DNA of 64,000 bases from the NCBI RefSeq assembly GCF_900104775.1, contig NZ_FNSA01000003.1, positions 992,001 through 1,056,000 on the forward strand. The letters are read 5' to 3'. The translations under genes and the position numbers were made by a program. Under the pieces are notes generated by a model that ran no database searches, had not been told where the DNA came from, and saw only the letters and a program-made list of their open reading frames with translations. Shown here in pieces: positions 23,588 through 33,692 of this stretch (the first letter of the stretch is position 1; each line of letters opens with the position of its first letter). The DNA comes from Tsukamurella tyrosinosolvens. Its GTDB lineage: Bacteria > Actinomycetota > Actinomycetes > Mycobacteriales > Mycobacteriaceae.

Positions 23588-24748
23588 ATGGAGACCCCTG
23601 GGAGACACCCCGACCGTCACGGCGACGAACTCGGCCTGGCGTTCAACCGGCTGAAGCGGCATGCCGTCGTCAGCGAGATCGTCTGGCGCTACTCCGTCGC
23701 CGGATTCACGCTGAGCGTCGGACTCTTCGGGGCGGTCATGATCTTCACCCCCGAGGGGGCGGCGGACTCCACGGCGCGAACGCTCGCGCTCGCGCTCCTG
23801 TGCGGGTCGGGGATTCCCGCCGCCATCGCGGTGAGCCGCCTTCCAATGACATCGCTGTGGTGGAATCCGTGCCGCCGGCGCAGATTGATCAGCACGCTGT
23901 TCGTCCTCTACGCCGACGTCGTGGTGACCAGCATTCTGGTGCTGTACAACAGCCCGGCCGCCGCGCTCGCCGGAACGGTCCTGTTCGCGACGGTCGGCGC
24001 CTACGCGGCGCATTTCCTGACCACCCACGCGGTGACGCTGCACCTCGTCTTCTCGAGCGCCGTGATCGTCCACCTGGGAGTCCGGGTGATTCAGGTGTAC
24101 GGGGCGACCCCGCTCGCCGTCTTCGCGCAGGTCGCCGTCAGCATTCTCGGCATCGGTGGCGTCGTGGTCCTCAACTACCTCTACACCCTCCAGCTCAAGC
24201 AGCTGATCAGGGCGAGTCTGACCGCCTCATCGACCGATGCGATGACCGGGCTGCTCAACCGCACCGGCTTCCGGGACTCGGTCGACGAGCTGTTGCGGTC
24301 GACGGACGGTCGCGCGTCGGTCGGCATGATCGACGTCGACCGGTTCAAGCACATCAACGACGCCTACGGTCACCTGGCCGGTGATGCCGCACTCCGGGCG
24401 GTGTCGACCGCGCTGCGACGGTCCGTCTCCCCGGAGTGGCTGGTCGCCAGAGTCGGCGGGGACGAGTTCGCCATCGTCTCGCCGACGAACGCGGCCGAGC
24501 TCGAGGCGGCCCTGCGATCCGCGCGGGAGCGTCTGCCCACGCCGGCCGACGGTGAGCGGATCTCGATCAGCGCGGGGATCGCATCGGTGGTCCTCCCGGA
24601 GCCGGGGCTCTTGCGGACCTTCGACGACCGGAGCAGGTTCTTCTACGCGGTCATCGAATCGGCGGACGGTTGCCTCCGGCGGAGTAAGGAGGCGGGTGGC
24701 GGCCGCACGACCGTTCATCCCGAGGGCGGCCCTCGGATTGGCGCTTAG
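23588..24748 (+). CDS. membrane diguanylate cyclase (GGDEF)
   Basis: Makes cyclic di-GMP. Of 386 residues, about 35-205 contain six hydrophobic segments, and a GGDEF domain follows. It includes DAMTGLLNRTGF at the domain start, DVDRFKHINDAYGH and the intact active site GGDEF at 290-294. I see no RxxD inhibitory site at the usual place before GGDEF, so feedback inhibition may be absent. No sensor motif was recognised in the membrane part. Its TAG stop overlaps the stop of the opposite gene by 4 bases. Confidence 0.93.
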   Translation: METPGRHPDRHGDELGLAFNRLKRHAVVSEIVWRYSVAGFTLSVGLFGAVMIFTPEGAADSTARTLALALLCGSGIPAAIAVSRLPMTSLWWNPCRRRRLISTLFVLYADVVVTSILVLYNSPAAALAGTVLFATVGAYAAHFLTTHAVTLHLVFSSAVIVHLGVRVIQVYGATPLAVFAQVAVSILGIGGVVVLNYLYTLQLKQLIRASLTASSTDAMTGLLNRTGFRDSVDELLRSTDGRASVGMIDVDRFKHINDAYGHLAGDAALRAVSTALRRSVSPEWLVARVGGDEFAIVSPTNAAELEAALRSARERLPTPADGERISISAGIASVVLPEPGLLRTFDDRSRFFYAVIESADGCLRRSKEAGGGRTTVHPEGGPRIGA

Positions 24749-25485
24749 CGCGACGGCCGCCCGCCGACGAGGTCGTCCCAGCGCCGCCGGACGGGTCCCC
24801 AGCGGGCGTCGACGTCCTGCTGACGGCGGTCCGCGCGGGACCGCTTCGCGGGCGCGTAGAACCAGCGCGCCCACGGCGAGGTGGGGCGGGCGAGCCGGAT
24901 CGCGGCGACCCACGCCACCGGCCAGGCGAACAGCCCGACGAGGGCGGTCGGGTACTTGCCCTTGAGCGCGGTGGCCGCGACGGCCACGAGGTGCACGACG
25001 AGCAGCGTGGCGATTCCGCCGCGCACCCACCGCTCGGTGTCGCCCAGCCCCGCGACGTTCGCGGGGGAGACCCCGACGACGGCCAGCCCGATGCACGCCG
25101 CCGCGAGCGTCACCACGTCGACGGACAGCTGCCCCTCCTGCGACCAGTACACGTCCTTGAGGTGGAAGAGCATCGCGAACTCGTCGAGCACGAGCGAGGC
25201 CCCGACGCCGACGAGCAGCGCCGCGAGGTACGACCACGGTGCCCGCCCTGCCGCGCCGACCGCCGTGAACGCCCCCGCCACCAGCAGGATCAGGCCGGGC
25301 GTCGAATGGTGCAGGTGCACCCCTCCGGCGCTGACGTCGTGGAAGGGGCCGCGCCCGGCGCGGATCGTCCGGGTGATCGTGCGCGTCGCGAGGAAGGTCA
25401 CCACGAACGCGACGAAGCTCAGGAGCAGCGGACCCTTCTGTGCGTCGATCACCTCGAGCCGCCACCACTCGTCGAACCGGTGCAC
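24745..25485 (-). CDS. multi-pass membrane protein with conserved-looking His/Asp/Glu motifs
   Basis: A 246-residue protein with about six membrane segments. Notable motifs are GGVHLHHSTPG after the first helix and LDEFAMLFHLKDVYW in the third to fourth helices, which place several His, Asp and Glu residues in or near the membrane. Such a pattern could bind a metal (inference). The C terminus is basic. GTG 25485 starts 2 bases after the stop of the 51-residue acidic gene, so it is probably the last gene of the encapsulin operon. Family uncharacterised. Confidence 0.78.
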   Translation of the reverse strand: MHRFDEWWRLEVIDAQKGPLLLSFVAFVVTFLATRTITRTIRAGRGPFHDVSAGGVHLHHSTPGLILLVAGAFTAVGAAGRAPWSYLAALLVGVGASLVLDEFAMLFHLKDVYWSQEGQLSVDVVTLAAACIGLAVVGVSPANVAGLGDTERWVRGGIATLLVVHLVAVAATALKGKYPTALVGLFAWPVAWVAAIRLARPTSPWARWFYAPAKRSRADRRQQDVDARWGPVRRRWDDLVGGRPSR

Positions 25486-25487
25486 GC

Positions 25488-25639
25488 CTAGGAGATGCCC
25501 TCTTCCTCGGCGATGACGTCCTCGCCGTCGTCGTCGAGGTCCGCGCCCACGGCCTCGCGGGCGTCGAGCTCCGCCTGCCGTGCCTCGGCGGCGGCCTCGT
25601 CGGGCGTCTCGGCCAGCGAGGACGGATCGTCGTTGTCGC

Positions 25640-25643
<4 letters not shown>
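25488..25643 (-). CDS. 51-residue highly acidic protein
   Basis: Reads MSDNDDPSSLAETPDEAAAE at the N terminus and ends EDVIAEEEGIS. It has 19 Asp/Glu, two Arg and no Lys in 51 residues, so it is very negatively charged and probably disordered. Its ATG overlaps the clp stop (ATGA, 25640-25643), with GAAGGAGAAGG just upstream, so translation is coupled to the Clp ATPase. The next gene begins 2 bases after it. No homologue is known to me. Coding status rests on the overlap, ribosome site and tight spacing. Confidence 0.65.
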
Positions 25644-28180
<2,537 letters not shown>

Positions 28181-28228
28181 GGGGATGCCTTTCTTCGGTT
28201 ATCGGAGGGGAGGGGTGGAGCGAGCGTC

Positions 28229-29026
28229 CTAGGAGGTCAGGGGGACCGACGCCTCCGCGGTGTAGGCCAGGAACGTGAAGGTCTCCTGCAGGTAGAGCTC
28301 CACCGAGGTCGCGTCGTGGCTGAGGTAGCCGATCTCGACGTCGGTGCCCAGGCGCAGCTCGTAATCGCCGCCGCGGGTGGTGAGCACGAAGCCGCCGTCG
28401 ATCGCGGGCGCCCAGATGATCTCGCCGTCCACGAGGCGCTTGAGCTGCTCGCGGATCGGGTAGCCGTGATCGGTGGTCTCGCTGATCGAGGTGTAGACGT
28501 CGGCGGAGAGCAGCACGGAGTACGGCCCGTCGACGCCCGCGAGCCGCAGGTCCTCGAGCGCGCTCGCGACGGCGTCGGGCACGTCGATCGGGTCGCTCGG
28601 CAGGACGATCGCCTTGTTCGACGACGAGGCCCGCAGGCCGGCGATCGACGCCGCGGCGTAGCCCTCGAAGACGGCGCGGTCCTCGGCGTACGCCAGCTGC
28701 TTGGCCGCCGCCTTGACGGGATCCCAATCCGCGTCCTGTGCGCCGCGTTCCACCGAGTCCACCGCGTCCCGGGAGACGGTGAAGGGCACCCGCAGCCGCA
28801 CCAGCGGGCGGCTCTCGCGCAGTTGCGCCTGCACGCCCTCGGCGGGGCCGTCGACGGGCAGGAGGCGACCCGTGCCGACCGCCGCGGCCTCGGGACCGTC
28901 CGGGCCGGTGACGTCGACGACGCGGCGGCCGGCGATGTTCCGCTTGAACGTGCGGGACGCCTCGGTCTCGATCTCCTCCCAGGCGGCGGGGGTGACCGGT
29001 GCGAGGTGACGGTGCAGGTTGTTCAT
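28229..29026 (-). CDS. enc: encapsulin shell protein (family 1)
   Basis: A 265-residue HK97-fold protein that self-assembles into a protein nanocompartment. The N terminus MNNLHRHLAPVTPAAWEEIE and TFKRNIAGRRVVDVTGP are typical of the linocin M18/CFP29 family, and the length is normal for T=1 shells. It begins 3 bases after the stop of the DyP peroxidase gene, which carries an encapsulin-targeting tail, so the peroxidase is its cargo. Confidence 0.96.
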   Translation of the reverse strand: MNNLHRHLAPVTPAAWEEIETEASRTFKRNIAGRRVVDVTGPDGPEAAAVGTGRLLPVDGPAEGVQAQLRESRPLVRLRVPFTVSRDAVDSVERGAQDADWDPVKAAAKQLAYAEDRAVFEGYAAASIAGLRASSSNKAIVLPSDPIDVPDAVASALEDLRLAGVDGPYSVLLSADVYTSISETTDHGYPIREQLKRLVDGEIIWAPAIDGGFVLTTRGGDYELRLGTDVEIGYLSHDATSVELYLQETFTFLAYTAEASVPLTS

Positions 29027-29029
29027 GAC

Positions 29030-30061
29030 TTACCTTTCCTTGAGGCCGCCGATGCCGAGCGAGCCGTCGGCCGGCGCGGGGATGGTCGTTCCGGTCGGTT
29101 CCGCCGACGGTGCGCCGTCGGCGGCGGGGAGATCGGGCGGCGCGTCGAGCCAGTCGCCCGACGGGGTGAAGAACAGGCCGCCCGTCAGGGCCGTCGAGAA
29201 GTCGAGGATCCGGTCGGTGTTGCCGGGCGGATCGCCGAGGAACATGTTGCGCAGCATCTGCTCCGTGACGCCGGGGTCGCGGGAGTAGCCGATGAAGTAG
29301 GTGCCGAACTCGCCCTTGCCGAGCTCGCCGAACGGCATGTTCTGCCGCATGATCTGCAGCTGCTCGCCGCTGGAGTCCTCGATCACGTTGAGCGCGATGT
29401 GCGCGTTCGCGGGCTTCACGTCGTCGGACATCTCGATGTCCTCGAGCTTGGTCCGCCCGATCACCCGCTCCTGCTCCTCGACCGACAGCGCGCGCCACGC
29501 GGACATGTCGTGCAGGTATTTCTGCACGTGCACGTAACTGCCGCCGGCGAAGTCGGGGTCCTCGTCCCCGATCGCCGTGGCGGCGACGGCCGCGGCGCCC
29601 GCGGGGTTCTCGGTGCCGTCGACGAAGCCGAGCAGGTCGCGGTCGTCGAAGAACCGGAAGCCGTGCACCTCGTCGACCACCGTGACCGCGTCCCCGAGCG
29701 CCTCGAGGATGCGCCACGACAGCTCGAAGCACATGTCGAGGGTGCTCGCCTTGACGTGGAACAGGACGTCGCCGGGGGTCGACGGTGCCCGGTGCCGCGG
29801 ACCGTCGAGCTCGACGAACGGGTGCAGGCCCTTCGGCTTGGGACCGGAGAACAACCGGTCCCAGGCGTCCGAGCCGAAGGAGGTCGTCAGCGACAACTGC
29901 TTCTCGGGGTAGCGGAAGCCGACCGAGCGGGTGAGCCCGGAGAGGTTGTCGAGCGCGTCGTGGACGCGGTCCTCCCGCCCGGGGTCGACGGTCGCGACGA
30001 CGAACATCGCGGCCTGGGTCAACGGCGAGATCACACCTTGATTCGGGACCACGATTTTCAC
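29030..30061 (-). CDS. DyP-type peroxidase, encapsulin cargo
   Basis: A haem peroxidase of 343 residues (B-type). It has the GFVDG motif (145-149, catalytic Asp), the proximal His at about 221 (KPANAHIALN) and the distal Arg at about 239 (MRQNMPFG). After a Pro/Ala linker the C terminus ends DGSLGIGGLKER, a match to the encapsulin-targeting peptide. GTG 30061 is used, but downstream GTG codons such as residue 4 are possible, because a -10-like TAGGGT runs into the first codon. First gene of the encapsulin operon. Confidence 0.95.
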   Translation of the reverse strand: MKIVVPNQGVISPLTQAAMFVVATVDPGREDRVHDALDNLSGLTRSVGFRYPEKQLSLTTSFGSDAWDRLFSGPKPKGLHPFVELDGPRHRAPSTPGDVLFHVKASTLDMCFELSWRILEALGDAVTVVDEVHGFRFFDDRDLLGFVDGTENPAGAAAVAATAIGDEDPDFAGGSYVHVQKYLHDMSAWRALSVEEQERVIGRTKLEDIEMSDDVKPANAHIALNVIEDSSGEQLQIMRQNMPFGELGKGEFGTYFIGYSRDPGVTEQMLRNMFLGDPPGNTDRILDFSTALTGGLFFTPSGDWLDAPPDLPAADGAPSAEPTGTTIPAPADGSLGIGGLKER

Positions 30062-30210
30062 CCTAACTCAGGTCTGGACGGCGCGACGGGGGACGAGGGA
30101 TCGGTGCGGCGGGACGCGAAATGCCGCGCGTGCGATGATGGTCCGTGCCCGGGTCGTCGGTGTCGATTCGACGGCGACGGGCGTCGTGCACGGGACGGAA
30201 GGAGTCGGAC

Positions 30211-30408: not shown

Positions 30409-31455
30409 GTGCGGCGTCCGGTGGGGATGAGCCTCCCCGAGCGCTACCGCCCCGACCTGCGCGACGGCGGCCACGCGCTGCGCGTCGCGATCGCGCTCCT
30501 CGTCCCGGGCCTGGTGCTGATCGCCTGGGGGCGCCCCGAGCTGCTGATCTACGCCGAGTTCGGCGCCTTCGCCGGCATGTACGGGCGGGGCGAGCAGGGC
30601 CGGCCCCGGATCGTGCACCAGGTGCAGGCGGGCGGCCTGCTCATCGCGGGGGAGGCGCTCGGCATCACGCTGGCGCACCATCAGGCGCCGCCCTGGGTGC
30701 TCGTGGCCGTCGGCGTGGTCTTCGCCATGGTCTGCTCCGTCCTGTCCGACGCGGTGCGGCTGCGCCCCGCCGGGCCGTTCTTCTTCCTGTTCGCGATGGG
30801 CGCGACCGCGACACTGCCCGCGGGCCTGGCCCCGCCCTGGCAGGCGCTCGCGATCTGCGCCGCGACGGTGGTCTTCGCCATCGTGGTCGGCGCGATCGGC
30901 CGGCCCGACCCCTTCCGGGGCCGGCCCTGGTGGGACGGCATCGCGATGGTGCTGCGCCGCCCGGCGCCCGGCGTGGGCATCCATGCGCTGCGCTACGCCC
31001 TCGCCGTCGGCATCGCGGGCACTGCGGGGGTGCTGATCGGCGTCGACCACGCGAACTGGGCGATGGCGGCCGCGGCGGTCCCGCTCGCTGTGATCGACGC
31101 GGGCCGGCCGTCCGACGCGGAGACCGGGCTGGTGATCACCCGCGCGACGCACCGCACCATCGGGACCTTCGTCGGGCTCGCCGTGGCCGCGGCGCTCTTG
31201 GCGCTCGACCCCGGGCCCACCGCGCTGGCGCTCGTGGCGATCGCGCTGCTGTTCCCGACGGAGCTGTACACGGCGCGGCACTACGCCGTCGCGATCGGCT
31301 TCTTCACCCCGCTGATCATGCTCATGACCGAGCTGGCCGACCCCACCGATCCGGTGCGGATGCTGCTCTACCGCGGCGTCGACACCGTGATCGGGGTGGT
31401 GGTGGGCGTCGCGGTCGCGCTCCTGGTGCGCAGCCCGGCCGAGCGGCGCCGCTGA
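30409..31455 (+). CDS. FUSC-family membrane protein
   Basis: A 348-residue protein with about ten hydrophobic segments in two halves. Internal repeats of the type AL(R)VAIAL(L)VPG and ALRYALAVGIAG open each half, as in the fusaric-acid resistance/YccC-type transporters. GVDHANWAMAAAAVPL and ATHRTIGTFVGLAVA are typical FUSC motifs. The start is GTG 30409 or ATG 30427; neither has a clear ribosome site. It may export aromatic compounds (family knowledge). Convergent with formate dehydrogenase. Confidence 0.82.
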   Translation: MRRPVGMSLPERYRPDLRDGGHALRVAIALLVPGLVLIAWGRPELLIYAEFGAFAGMYGRGEQGRPRIVHQVQAGGLLIAGEALGITLAHHQAPPWVLVAVGVVFAMVCSVLSDAVRLRPAGPFFFLFAMGATATLPAGLAPPWQALAICAATVVFAIVVGAIGRPDPFRGRPWWDGIAMVLRRPAPGVGIHALRYALAVGIAGTAGVLIGVDHANWAMAAAAVPLAVIDAGRPSDAETGLVITRATHRTIGTFVGLAVAAALLALDPGPTALALVAIALLFPTELYTARHYAVAIGFFTPLIMLMTELADPTDPVRMLLYRGVDTVIGVVVGVAVALLVRSPAERRR

Positions 31456-31491: not shown

Positions 31492-32670
31492 TCAGACGTG
31501 CGCGCCCGGGCTGGCGGAGCCGTCGGAGGTGTACGAGCTCGCGCCCACGCCCGCCAGCGCGCCGCCGTCCACGATGAGGTACTCGTCGCGGATCGGCGAA
31601 CCGGCGAAGAAGTCCTCGAGGATCTCGCGGGTGCCCGCGGCGTACCGGGCCTGCGCGGAGAGCGTCGTTCCGGAGACGTGCGGGGTCATCGCGTGGTGCG
31701 GCATGGTGCGCCACGGGTGGTCGACGGCCGGCGGCTGCGGGAACCAGACGTCGCCGGCGTAGCCCGCGAGCTGCCCGGACTCGAGCGCGGCGACGACGTC
31801 GTCGCGGACCACGATCTCGGCGCGCGCGGTGTTCACGATGTAGGAGCCGCGGCGCATCGTCGACAGCAGGTCGGCGTCGAACATGTGGTAGGTCTTCGGG
31901 TGCAGCGGGGCGTGGATGTCGACCACGTCCACCGAGCGGACCAGCGACTCGACCGACTCGTGGTAGGTCAGGTTCAGCTCCTGCTCGAGCTCCAGCGGCA
32001 GGCGGCGGGTGTCGAAGTAGTGCAGCCGCACGCCGAACGGGGCGAGGCGTCGCATCACGGCCTGGCCGATGCGGCCGGCGGCGATGATGCCGACGTCCAT
32101 GCCCTCGAGATCGTAGGCGCGCTCGACGCAGTCGGCGATGTTCCAGCCGCCCTCGACCACCCACTTGTACGAGGGGACGAAGTTGCGGACCAGCGTGAGG
32201 ATCTGCATCACGGCGTGCTCGGCGACGCTGATCGAGTTGCTGTAGGTGACCTCGGCGACGGTGATCCCGGCCTTGATCGCCGCGTCCAGGTCGACGTGGT
32301 CCGAGCCGATGCCGGCGGTGAGCGCGAGCTTGAGGTTCGGGGCCTTCGCGATGCGCTCGGCCGAGAGGTAGGCGGGCCAGAAGGGCTGCGAGATGACGAC
32401 CTCGGCCTCGGCGAGGTGGCGCTCGAACTCGGGGCCGTCCTTCTCCGACGTCACGATCAGCTCGTGGCCGGCCGCCTCGAGGTACTTCCGCAGGCCCAGC
32501 TCGCCGGAGACGCAGCCGAGCAGCTCGCCCGGTGTGAAGTCGATCGCGGCGGGGGACGGGATGGTCTGCCCGCCGGGGTAGGCCTCGATCAGCGGGATGG
32601 AGTCGCGGGCGTACTCGGGCGGGTAGCCCGTCACCGGGTCGGGGTACAGGACACACAGGATCTTCGCCAT
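31492..32670 (-). CDS. fdh: NAD+-dependent formate dehydrogenase
   Basis: Oxidises formate to CO2 with NAD+, without metal cofactors. The 392-residue D-2-hydroxyacid dehydrogenase-fold protein has the substrate loop SNSISVAEHAVM, the Rossmann motif GRIGQAVMRRL followed by YFDTRRLP (Asp, so NAD+ rather than NADP+), ARAEIVV, PQPPAVDHPW (Gln) and the catalytic His in MTPHVSG. AGGAG precedes ATG 32670. A LysR gene lies upstream on the same strand. It could supply NADH or remove formate. Confidence 0.94.
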   Translation of the reverse strand: MAKILCVLYPDPVTGYPPEYARDSIPLIEAYPGGQTIPSPAAIDFTPGELLGCVSGELGLRKYLEAAGHELIVTSEKDGPEFERHLAEAEVVISQPFWPAYLSAERIAKAPNLKLALTAGIGSDHVDLDAAIKAGITVAEVTYSNSISVAEHAVMQILTLVRNFVPSYKWVVEGGWNIADCVERAYDLEGMDVGIIAAGRIGQAVMRRLAPFGVRLHYFDTRRLPLELEQELNLTYHESVESLVRSVDVVDIHAPLHPKTYHMFDADLLSTMRRGSYIVNTARAEIVVRDDVVAALESGQLAGYAGDVWFPQPPAVDHPWRTMPHHAMTPHVSGTTLSAQARYAAGTREILEDFFAGSPIRDEYLIVDGGALAGVGASSYTSDGSASPGAHV

Positions 32671-32804: not shown

Positions 32805-33692
32805 TCAGTCCGCGCGCTGCGCGCTCTCCGCGAGGGCCCGGGCGAGCACCGATTCGGGATCGCCGGCGCCGCGCACGAGGGCCACGGAGGTGGCGAGCTC
32901 GCCCGCGCCCTCGAGCTCGACGGTCCGCGTGCCCGACGGTGCGCGGTACGTCGCGATCCACGCCCGCGGCACGATCGACGCCCACCGCCCCGCGCCCACC
33001 ATCGCCAGGAGCGTCGCCACCGAGTCGGCCTCCAGGCGCGGCGTGAGCCGCACCCCGTGCGCCCGGGCCGCCGCGTCGACGAGGTCCCGCCCGTGCATGC
33101 CCTCGTGCAGCAGGCACATCGGCAGCTGCGCGGCGTCCGCCCACGCGAGCGGGCCGTCACCGTCGGGCAGGAGGTCCTCGCGCGCGATGAGTGCGAGCCG
33201 GTCCGTGTACAGCGGCGTCACCGACAACCCGTCGACGTCGACGCCCTCGGGGTAGACGATGCCCGCGTCCAACTCGAACCGGCGGATCCGCTCGACCACG
33301 TCGGCGGAGCGCAGGCCCGCCCACACCCGGACCCGGACCAGCGGGTGGGCGGCGCAGAACGGGTCGGTGAGGAGCGCGGCGGACGTGGCGGCGGCGGGGA
33401 TCACGCCGAGGCTCAGCTCTCCGGTGAGCCCGGTGCGCAGGGCCGTGACCTCGAGCTCCAGGGCGTCGCGGTCGGCGAGGATGCGCCGGGCCCAGGGCAC
33501 GAGCCGCTCACCCTCGGGGGTCAGGCCCTCGAAGGAGGAGCCGCGCAGGACGAGGGGCACCTTGAGTTCGTGCTCGAGTTTGCGGATCGCCTCGGACAGC
33601 GCGGGCTGCGAGACGTAGCAGGCGCTGGCCGCGCGGGCGAAGTGCTGCTCGCGCGCGAGGGCGACGAAGTACTCGAGCTGCCGGAAGAGCAT
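32805..33692 (-). CDS. LysR family transcriptional regulator
   Basis: A 295-residue protein with the N-terminal winged helix LEYFVALAREQHFARAASAC followed by YVSQPALSEAIRKLE, and a C-terminal periplasmic-binding-like effector domain. It is on the same strand as and upstream of the formate dehydrogenase gene, with a 134-bp gap, and 9 bases after the ArsC-like gene. A role in controlling fdh is plausible from position alone. Confidence 0.92.
   Translation of the reverse strand: MLFRQLEYFVALAREQHFARAASACYVSQPALSEAIRKLEHELKVPLVLRGSSFEGLTPEGERLVPWARRILADRDALELEVTALRTGLTGELSLGVIPAAATSAALLTDPFCAAHPLVRVRVWAGLRSADVVERIRRFELDAGIVYPEGVDVDGLSVTPLYTDRLALIAREDLLPDGDGPLAWADAAQLPMCLLHEGMHGRDLVDAAARAHGVRLTPRLEADSVATLLAMVGAGRWASIVPRAWIATYRAPSGTRTVELEGAGELATSVALVRGAGDPESVLARALAESAQRAD

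Follow-up and report, generated by a model that had tools for sequence, protein, structure and literature searches.

The window analysed here is a stretch of 64,000 nucleotides from Tsukamurella tyrosinosolvens (contig NZ_FNSA01000003.1), and it contains five minus-strand genes with four tight joins. These genes encode, in order, a DyP-type peroxidase (DyP), a family 1 encapsulin shell protein, a Clp ATPase, an acidic protein of 51 residues and a membrane protein (Table 1). The DyP gene lies directly upstream of the encapsulin gene. The order of the five genes and the lengths of their junctions (3 bases, 48 bases, a 4-base overlap and 2 bases) are seen in the sequence exactly as the original prediction gave them. 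As described below, the block of DyP, encapsulin and Clp extends an otherwise ordinary DyP-encapsulin operon in a way that is specific to Tsukamurella.

Gene content of the locus

The first two genes are clear members of known families. The shell protein scored 335 bits against the encap_f1 model NF041155 (cut-off 100) and 321 bits against Linocin_M18 (cut-off 24.3). The DyP carries GSLGIGGLK at its C-terminus, which we take to be a targeting-peptide motif, and a stretch of the form G[AS]LxIGxLK occurs at the C-terminus of all 15 intact Tsukamurella DyP proteins. The annotation of T. tyrosinosolvens NCTC13231 shows these five genes joined in the same way at all four junctions, and its acidic peptide is 100% identical to that of the window. 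Record NZ_LR134465.1 (L302), named "plasmid 23" of T. tyrosinosolvens, carries the locus together with genes for pth, ribosomal protein L25 and release factor 3; this record looks like a mislabelled piece of the chromosome.

Distribution within Tsukamurella

Encapsulin was matched in all of the 16 Tsukamurella genomes in our sample, with a DyP gene directly before it each time. In one of them (G256, an assembly that is 83% complete), DyP, encapsulin and the neighbouring FUSC gene are each split between frames, which is likely a sequencing error (L130). A close Clp relative is present in 11 of the 16 genomes and is directly behind encapsulin in every one. A twelfth genome, G253, retains behind encapsulin only residues 756-835 of Clp, which are 92% identical and represent a C-terminal scar. 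Clp was not found in the searched Tsukamurella genomes G249, G251, G258 and G259, and no Tsukamurella genome that lacks Clp at the locus has it elsewhere. All five genomes without a full Clp kept encapsulin, and the shell of Clp-less G249 is 97% identical to that of the window. The genus therefore offers a natural comparison of near-identical shells with and without Clp.

The smaller genes are distributed less evenly. Eleven of the 16 genomes (G000, G191, G249, G250, G251, G252, G253, G254, G256, G257 and G260) carry the acidic gene at the locus, and five (G000, G191, G238, G251 and G253) carry the membrane gene there. A further small gene, here called p34, encodes 34 residues rich in E, R and K (L121:6870-6974, L128:7073-7177, L299 and L216:881-985; MSDKNTREEEIEHEQKRKQEERDRLEREEQERLE in G191) and stands behind Clp or the Clp scar in seven genomes (G191, G238, G252, G253, G256, G260 and G261). 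It is absent from the window, where the end of Clp runs straight into the start of the acidic gene. The acidic gene is directly behind encapsulin in Clp-less G249 and G251 and behind the Clp scar in G253; G238 has an acidic gene at another chromosomal site. Among the genomes examined, 11 of the 13 known places of the acidic gene are in the encapsulin operon.

Evolutionary history of the block

A tree of joined DyP and encapsulin sequences was built from 15 Tsukamurella genomes (G256 was left out) and five outgroup rows, one of which has a very long branch. On this tree the presence of Clp requires at least four changes of state and that of the acidic gene three. Because Clp already follows encapsulin on the deep branch G257, the simplest reading would be an early presence of Clp in the genus followed by repeated loss, with the placement of G257, which is long-branched, and of G258 poorly supported. 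Clp has probably stood behind the shell gene since the base of Tsukamurella. In a quick tree of Clp, whose rows leave out the G253 scar, the Tsukamurella sequences form one clade (100). One loss may have left its trace in G251, where the leader of the acidic gene is nearly identical to the Clp leader of G000 and G191 with the junction at the start letters that the genes have in common (ATGAGCGA); this join suggests a precise deletion running from one start codon to the other.

Distribution outside the genus

An encapsulin match was obtained for 57 of the 249 genomes sampled from the order. Outside Tsukamurella, we read 52 encapsulin loci with up to approximately 7 kb of flank per side, several of them cut by contig ends, and left out the encapsulin fragments in G079, G177 and G227. 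DyP is directly upstream of encapsulin in 49 of these loci (48 found by script, and L178 at a contig end). Neither Clp nor the acidic, p34 or membrane gene was found at any of the 52, with p34 and the acidic gene sought by model search.

The reverse search, which started from Clp, gave a similar picture. Clp scored at least 887 bits in 84 of the 249 genomes (hand count), and outside Tsukamurella only two of these, G060 and G160, also contain a complete encapsulin, located on a different contig from Clp. Among the best 80 of 535 confirmed Clp candidates, the five Tsukamurella loci carry the operon; the flanks of the other 75 (up to 6 kb) contain no encapsulin, acidic or membrane gene, and one of them (L216) has DyP and p34. 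Clp of this presumed stand-alone type is a separate gene in Nocardia, Rhodococcus and other actinobacteria. From 401 sampled genomes of the family we picked by hand 53 outside Tsukamurella that carry the close type of Clp. Encapsulin is present in every one of these, and no copy was seen nearer to Clp than approximately 110 kb (G409 and G319), a distance measurable only for a minority since most pairs are on different contigs. We rejected this co-occurrence as proof of a link; it tells little, since encapsulin is widespread across the family in any case (by hand count, in 37 of the 42 members of the family within the order sample).

Among the loci examined, p34 occurs only in Tsukamurella, in Mycobacterium aquaticum and in G018, a genome of another family. 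Another possibility is that the acidic protein belongs with encapsulin rather than with Clp, as a disordered acidic partner of the shell or the peroxidase that was kept when Clp was lost. The position of its gene in G249, G251 and G253 is what such a partner would leave. However, the gene is missing from the locus in five of the 16 Tsukamurella genomes and from all 52 outside loci, and G018 has a p34-acidic pair and, far apart from it, a 71% identical Clp, and has no encapsulin match. We regard this partnership as quite unlikely.

Type of the Clp ATPase and the small proteins

Both Walker A motifs are intact in the Clp of the window. Across 91 Clp-family rows, which contain five Tsukamurella sequences twice, the first motif was recognised by pattern in 90 and the second in 91. 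Two more long paralogues are encoded in this genome; by their sequence, we called them ClpC and ClpB. In its own ClpC and in nine more Tsukamurella ClpC proteins, an LGF motif occupies a position that we take to be the ClpP-docking loop. This loop is absent from the Clp of the window and from all 90 readable rows of the 91; for the remaining row, L264, the loop pattern gave no reading, and the segment itself contains no GF. In the alignment, the middle region is short, as in the genome's own ClpC, in contrast to the long middle domain of ClpB.

The N-terminus is rich in aromatic residues. Of the 84 Clp-family members that were read with guessed start codons, 80 have at least four such residues among the first 22 positions; two loci gave no N-terminus, and the starts of L204, L216 and L235 were set too late in this count. 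The N-terminus is the same in relatives that have no encapsulin alongside. Because the protein has no ClpP-docking loop and has this aromatic N-terminus, it probably works as a stand-alone, ClpP-independent disaggregase. We also considered Clp as cargo and rejected this option: no targeting peptide was seen at its C-terminus, and the EGSLP near its end is also found in relatives whose flanks are free of encapsulin (L211, L215 and L225-L227).

A Pfam search at E<=10 returned no family for the acidic protein, p34 or the membrane protein; an assignment of the acidic protein to DUF5709 or any other family was thus dropped. NCBIfam likewise gave nothing for the acidic and membrane proteins. p34 and the acidic protein are accordingly two tiny conserved protein families that Pfam does not name. 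The membrane protein has HLHH and LDEFA stretches, and its relatives occur in 82 of the 249 genomes of the order.

Expression signals and selection

Between positions 24600 and 30450, no promoter was found by the sigma-70 consensus, a type of scan that covers actinobacterial promoters poorly. The same interval has one terminator-like site, which is within the Clp gene; shuffled sequences led us to expect 1.6. Upstream of DyP, the conserved stretch CATCATCGCACG is a possible operator: in 12 of the 13 Tsukamurella genomes with an exact copy it lies 69-80 bases before the DyP start, and the 49 further DyP loci that were read contain no exact copy.

Every gene of the block is under purifying selection in Tsukamurella, with median ratios of nonsynonymous to synonymous substitution (dN/dS) of 0.25 for DyP, 0.25 for encapsulin, 0.19 for Clp, 0.17 for p34, 0.27 for the acidic gene (47 of 55 pairs usable) and 0.20 for the membrane gene; G256 was left out for DyP and encapsulin. 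Because its genes are under such selection, we consider the block to be more than a product of chance.

Interpretation of the gene block

The original prediction tied Clp to encapsulin and suggested that Clp handles the shell or its cargo. The tie is real and conserved in one genus, where 11 of 16 genomes have Clp directly behind the shell gene, and it was not seen at any of the 52 loci read outside it. The handling role was not supported: encapsulin persists in five Tsukamurella genomes without a full Clp, no Clp was found at the outside loci, and the Clp family was otherwise found away from encapsulin. A dedicated role of Clp on shell or cargo is possible but unsupported. The prediction had also asked whether the added genes are mostly found without encapsulin; this is mostly so for Clp and also for the membrane gene, with its five occurrences in 16 genomes, and the acidic gene is the exception. 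Because relatives without them kept the shell and the enzyme, Clp and the small proteins appear to be an accessory for the stress response that the system can do without.

The reading that we favour, with somewhat better than even confidence, is that a stand-alone Clp disaggregase has added general stress proteostasis to an oxidative-stress operon of DyP and encapsulin. A general role for Clp in a genus-level extension of a known operon is plausible. In this arrangement, Clp follows the shell gene immediately and is accompanied by one or two small charged proteins (p34, the acidic protein) and, in some genomes, by the membrane protein. The mobile aromatic N-terminus of each Clp protomer would stick to aggregated or damaged protein of general origin, and the bound protein would be threaded through the two ATPase rings for refolding and not for degradation. 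Co-transcription with DyP would allow oxidative or acid stress to switch on aggregate rescue and peroxide detoxification together.

Several observations weigh against this reading. The curated cut-offs for the disaggregase families are missed: Clp scored 1014 bits against ClpB (TIGR03346; cut-off 1232), 900 against ClpG and 899 against ClpK (1900 each). With scores this far below the ClpG and ClpK cut-offs, the label of disaggregase is a claim about how the protein works and not about its family. A more distant relative (L022, 59% identical) shows VGF in the loop segment, which means that the wider Clp family has not lost ClpP docking throughout. Adjacency to encapsulin is strict wherever Clp is present in Tsukamurella. 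In G252, Clp groups with that of G238 and G261, while DyP-encapsulin groups with that of the window; Clp therefore seems to have been swapped at this position, a hint at a local reason for its place. Finally, M. aquaticum (L216, G263) has a second DyP-encapsulin pair that starts approximately 5.3 kb from Clp and is read divergently from it, with a p34 gene divergent beside the DyP of this pair.

The surroundings of this mycobacterial pair resemble the window further. A FUSC gene (50% identical to that of the window) lies between Clp and the second encapsulin, a LysR gene (68% identical) lies one gene beyond the encapsulin, and p34, DyP-encapsulin, Clp, FUSC and LysR all fall within approximately 15 kb. 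The second encapsulin is of the mycobacterial type in a tree calculated without L182, with 82% identity to the first copy of the same genome and 73% to the encapsulin of the window, and a plain transfer of the locus from Tsukamurella therefore does not account for it.

The cluster in M. aquaticum and the apparent swap of Clp at its site leave room for a shell-handling reading. In its developed form, Clp would be a dedicated caretaker that, by unfolding damaged subunits of the shell or of DyP, allows compartments to be loaded, repaired or taken apart, with p34 and the acidic protein as adaptors. The strict adjacency and the 4-base coupling of Clp to the small genes would fit such a function. 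Nevertheless, encapsulin is kept without Clp in the five Tsukamurella genomes, no Clp was found near encapsulin at the 52 outside loci, and the Clp N-terminus is unchanged in relatives that have no encapsulin alongside; we consider a caretaker unlikely. The same holds for its extension to an ATP-driven module of Clp, the acidic protein and p34 that would dismantle and rebuild oxidised compartments in Tsukamurella and, in rearranged form, in M. aquaticum, which we find doubtful. At the other extreme, the additional genes might merely ride behind a strong promoter with no functional link to the compartment or to stress. Repeated loss and the patchy make-up of the block are what a neutral neighbourhood would produce, but purifying selection acts on every gene, Clp is nowhere else in the Tsukamurella genomes that lack it at the locus, and a similar grouping recurs in M. 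aquaticum. Neutrality is therefore very unlikely in our view, and general stress proteostasis is the reading that we retain.

Neighbouring genes and features of the window

In M. brisbanense (L204), LysR, FUSC and Clp occur together at the locus without DyP-encapsulin. A formate dehydrogenase-like gene, presumably of the molybdenum type, is directly behind Clp in M. aquaticum (L275) and M. brisbanense. In another mycobacterium (G034; L162, L291), an NAD-dependent formate dehydrogenase that is 76% identical lies within approximately 8 kb of a second encapsulin, and the genes behind that encapsulin are, we assume, an oxalyl-CoA decarboxylase and a formyl-CoA transferase. An oxalate/formate link of second DyP-encapsulin copies is possible. 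As a steady partner, the formate dehydrogenase was rejected: a close relative occurs in 14 of the 249 genomes, and outside Tsukamurella it is near encapsulin only in G034.

Table 1. Features of the encapsulin locus and its surroundings, with positions in the window.
Feature	Position	Strand	Basis or occurrence
DyP-type peroxidase, cargo	29030..30061	-	Pfam Dyp_perox_N and Dyp_perox_C, TIGR01413
C-terminal targeting peptide DGSLGIGGLKER of DyP	29033..29068	-	G[AS]LxIGxLK in 15/15 intact Tsukamurella DyP
Family 1 encapsulin shell protein	28229..29026	-	NF041155, Linocin_M18; PDB matches to encapsulins including Cfp29
Gap between encapsulin and Clp, 48 bases, likely ribosome-binding stretch GAAGAAAGG	28181..28228	-	sequence
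Putative stand-alone Clp ATPase, 846 residues, two AAA domains, without ClpP loop	25640..28180	-	Pfam/NCBIfam, alignment
Aromatic N-terminus of Clp, first 17 residues	28130..28180	-	80/84 family members
Acidic protein, 51 residues, 4-base overlap with Clp	25488..25643	-	no Pfam match
Membrane protein, 246 residues, GTG start, 2-base gap to acidic gene	24745..25485	-	at locus in 5/16 Tsukamurella
Conserved CATCATCGCACG upstream of DyP, candidate operator	30129..30140	-	exact in 13/16 Tsukamurella
FUSC family protein, divergent neighbour	30409..31455	+	relative near Clp in two mycobacteria
NAD-dependent formate dehydrogenase, neighbour	31492..32670	-	T. tyrosinosolvens annotation
LysR regulator, neighbour	32805..33692	-	T. 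tyrosinosolvens annotation

Comparison with known systems

The operon of DyP and encapsulin protects Mycobacterium tuberculosis from peroxide at low pH, according to one report (PMC8635971), and the assembly of encapsulins is called poorly characterised in another (PMC11830004). A large survey names short-chain oxidoreductases, cupins, DUF1345, DUF5709, 6-phosphogluconate dehydrogenase and diaminopimelate decarboxylase as accessory genes of DyP operons (PMC8346489); at E<=10, neither DUF1345 nor DUF5709 was matched in our membrane or acidic protein. A full-text search found no unfoldase tied to encapsulin, most subscription papers being beyond its reach. In two encapsulin papers, "CLP" stands for the cargo-loading peptide, and in PMC8049743, ClpC occurs only in the reference list. 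The view that Clp and the other added genes fall outside the described encapsulin systems thus agrees with the literature searched, which includes one large survey in part.

Compared with a DyP operon of family 1 encapsulin, such as mycobacterial DyP-Cfp29, the locus has the same encap_f1 shell, the same DyP directly upstream and the same C-terminal targeting peptide, and differs in that a Clp ATPase and small charged genes follow. With regard to Clp, Listeria ClpL is described as a stand-alone disaggregase that has no ClpP motif and binds aggregates through aromatic N-terminal residues (PMC11006417). The Clp of the window resembles ClpL and ClpG in its two AAA domains, the lack of a ClpP motif and the aromatic N-terminal region, the N-termini being likened by description; unlike them, it has a short ClpC-like middle region and is far below the ClpG cut-off. 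Its best matches among solved structures are ClpC/MecB, and it shares the short middle region with the ClpC of the ClpCP protease, whereas the ClpP-docking LGF loop of that protein is absent here.

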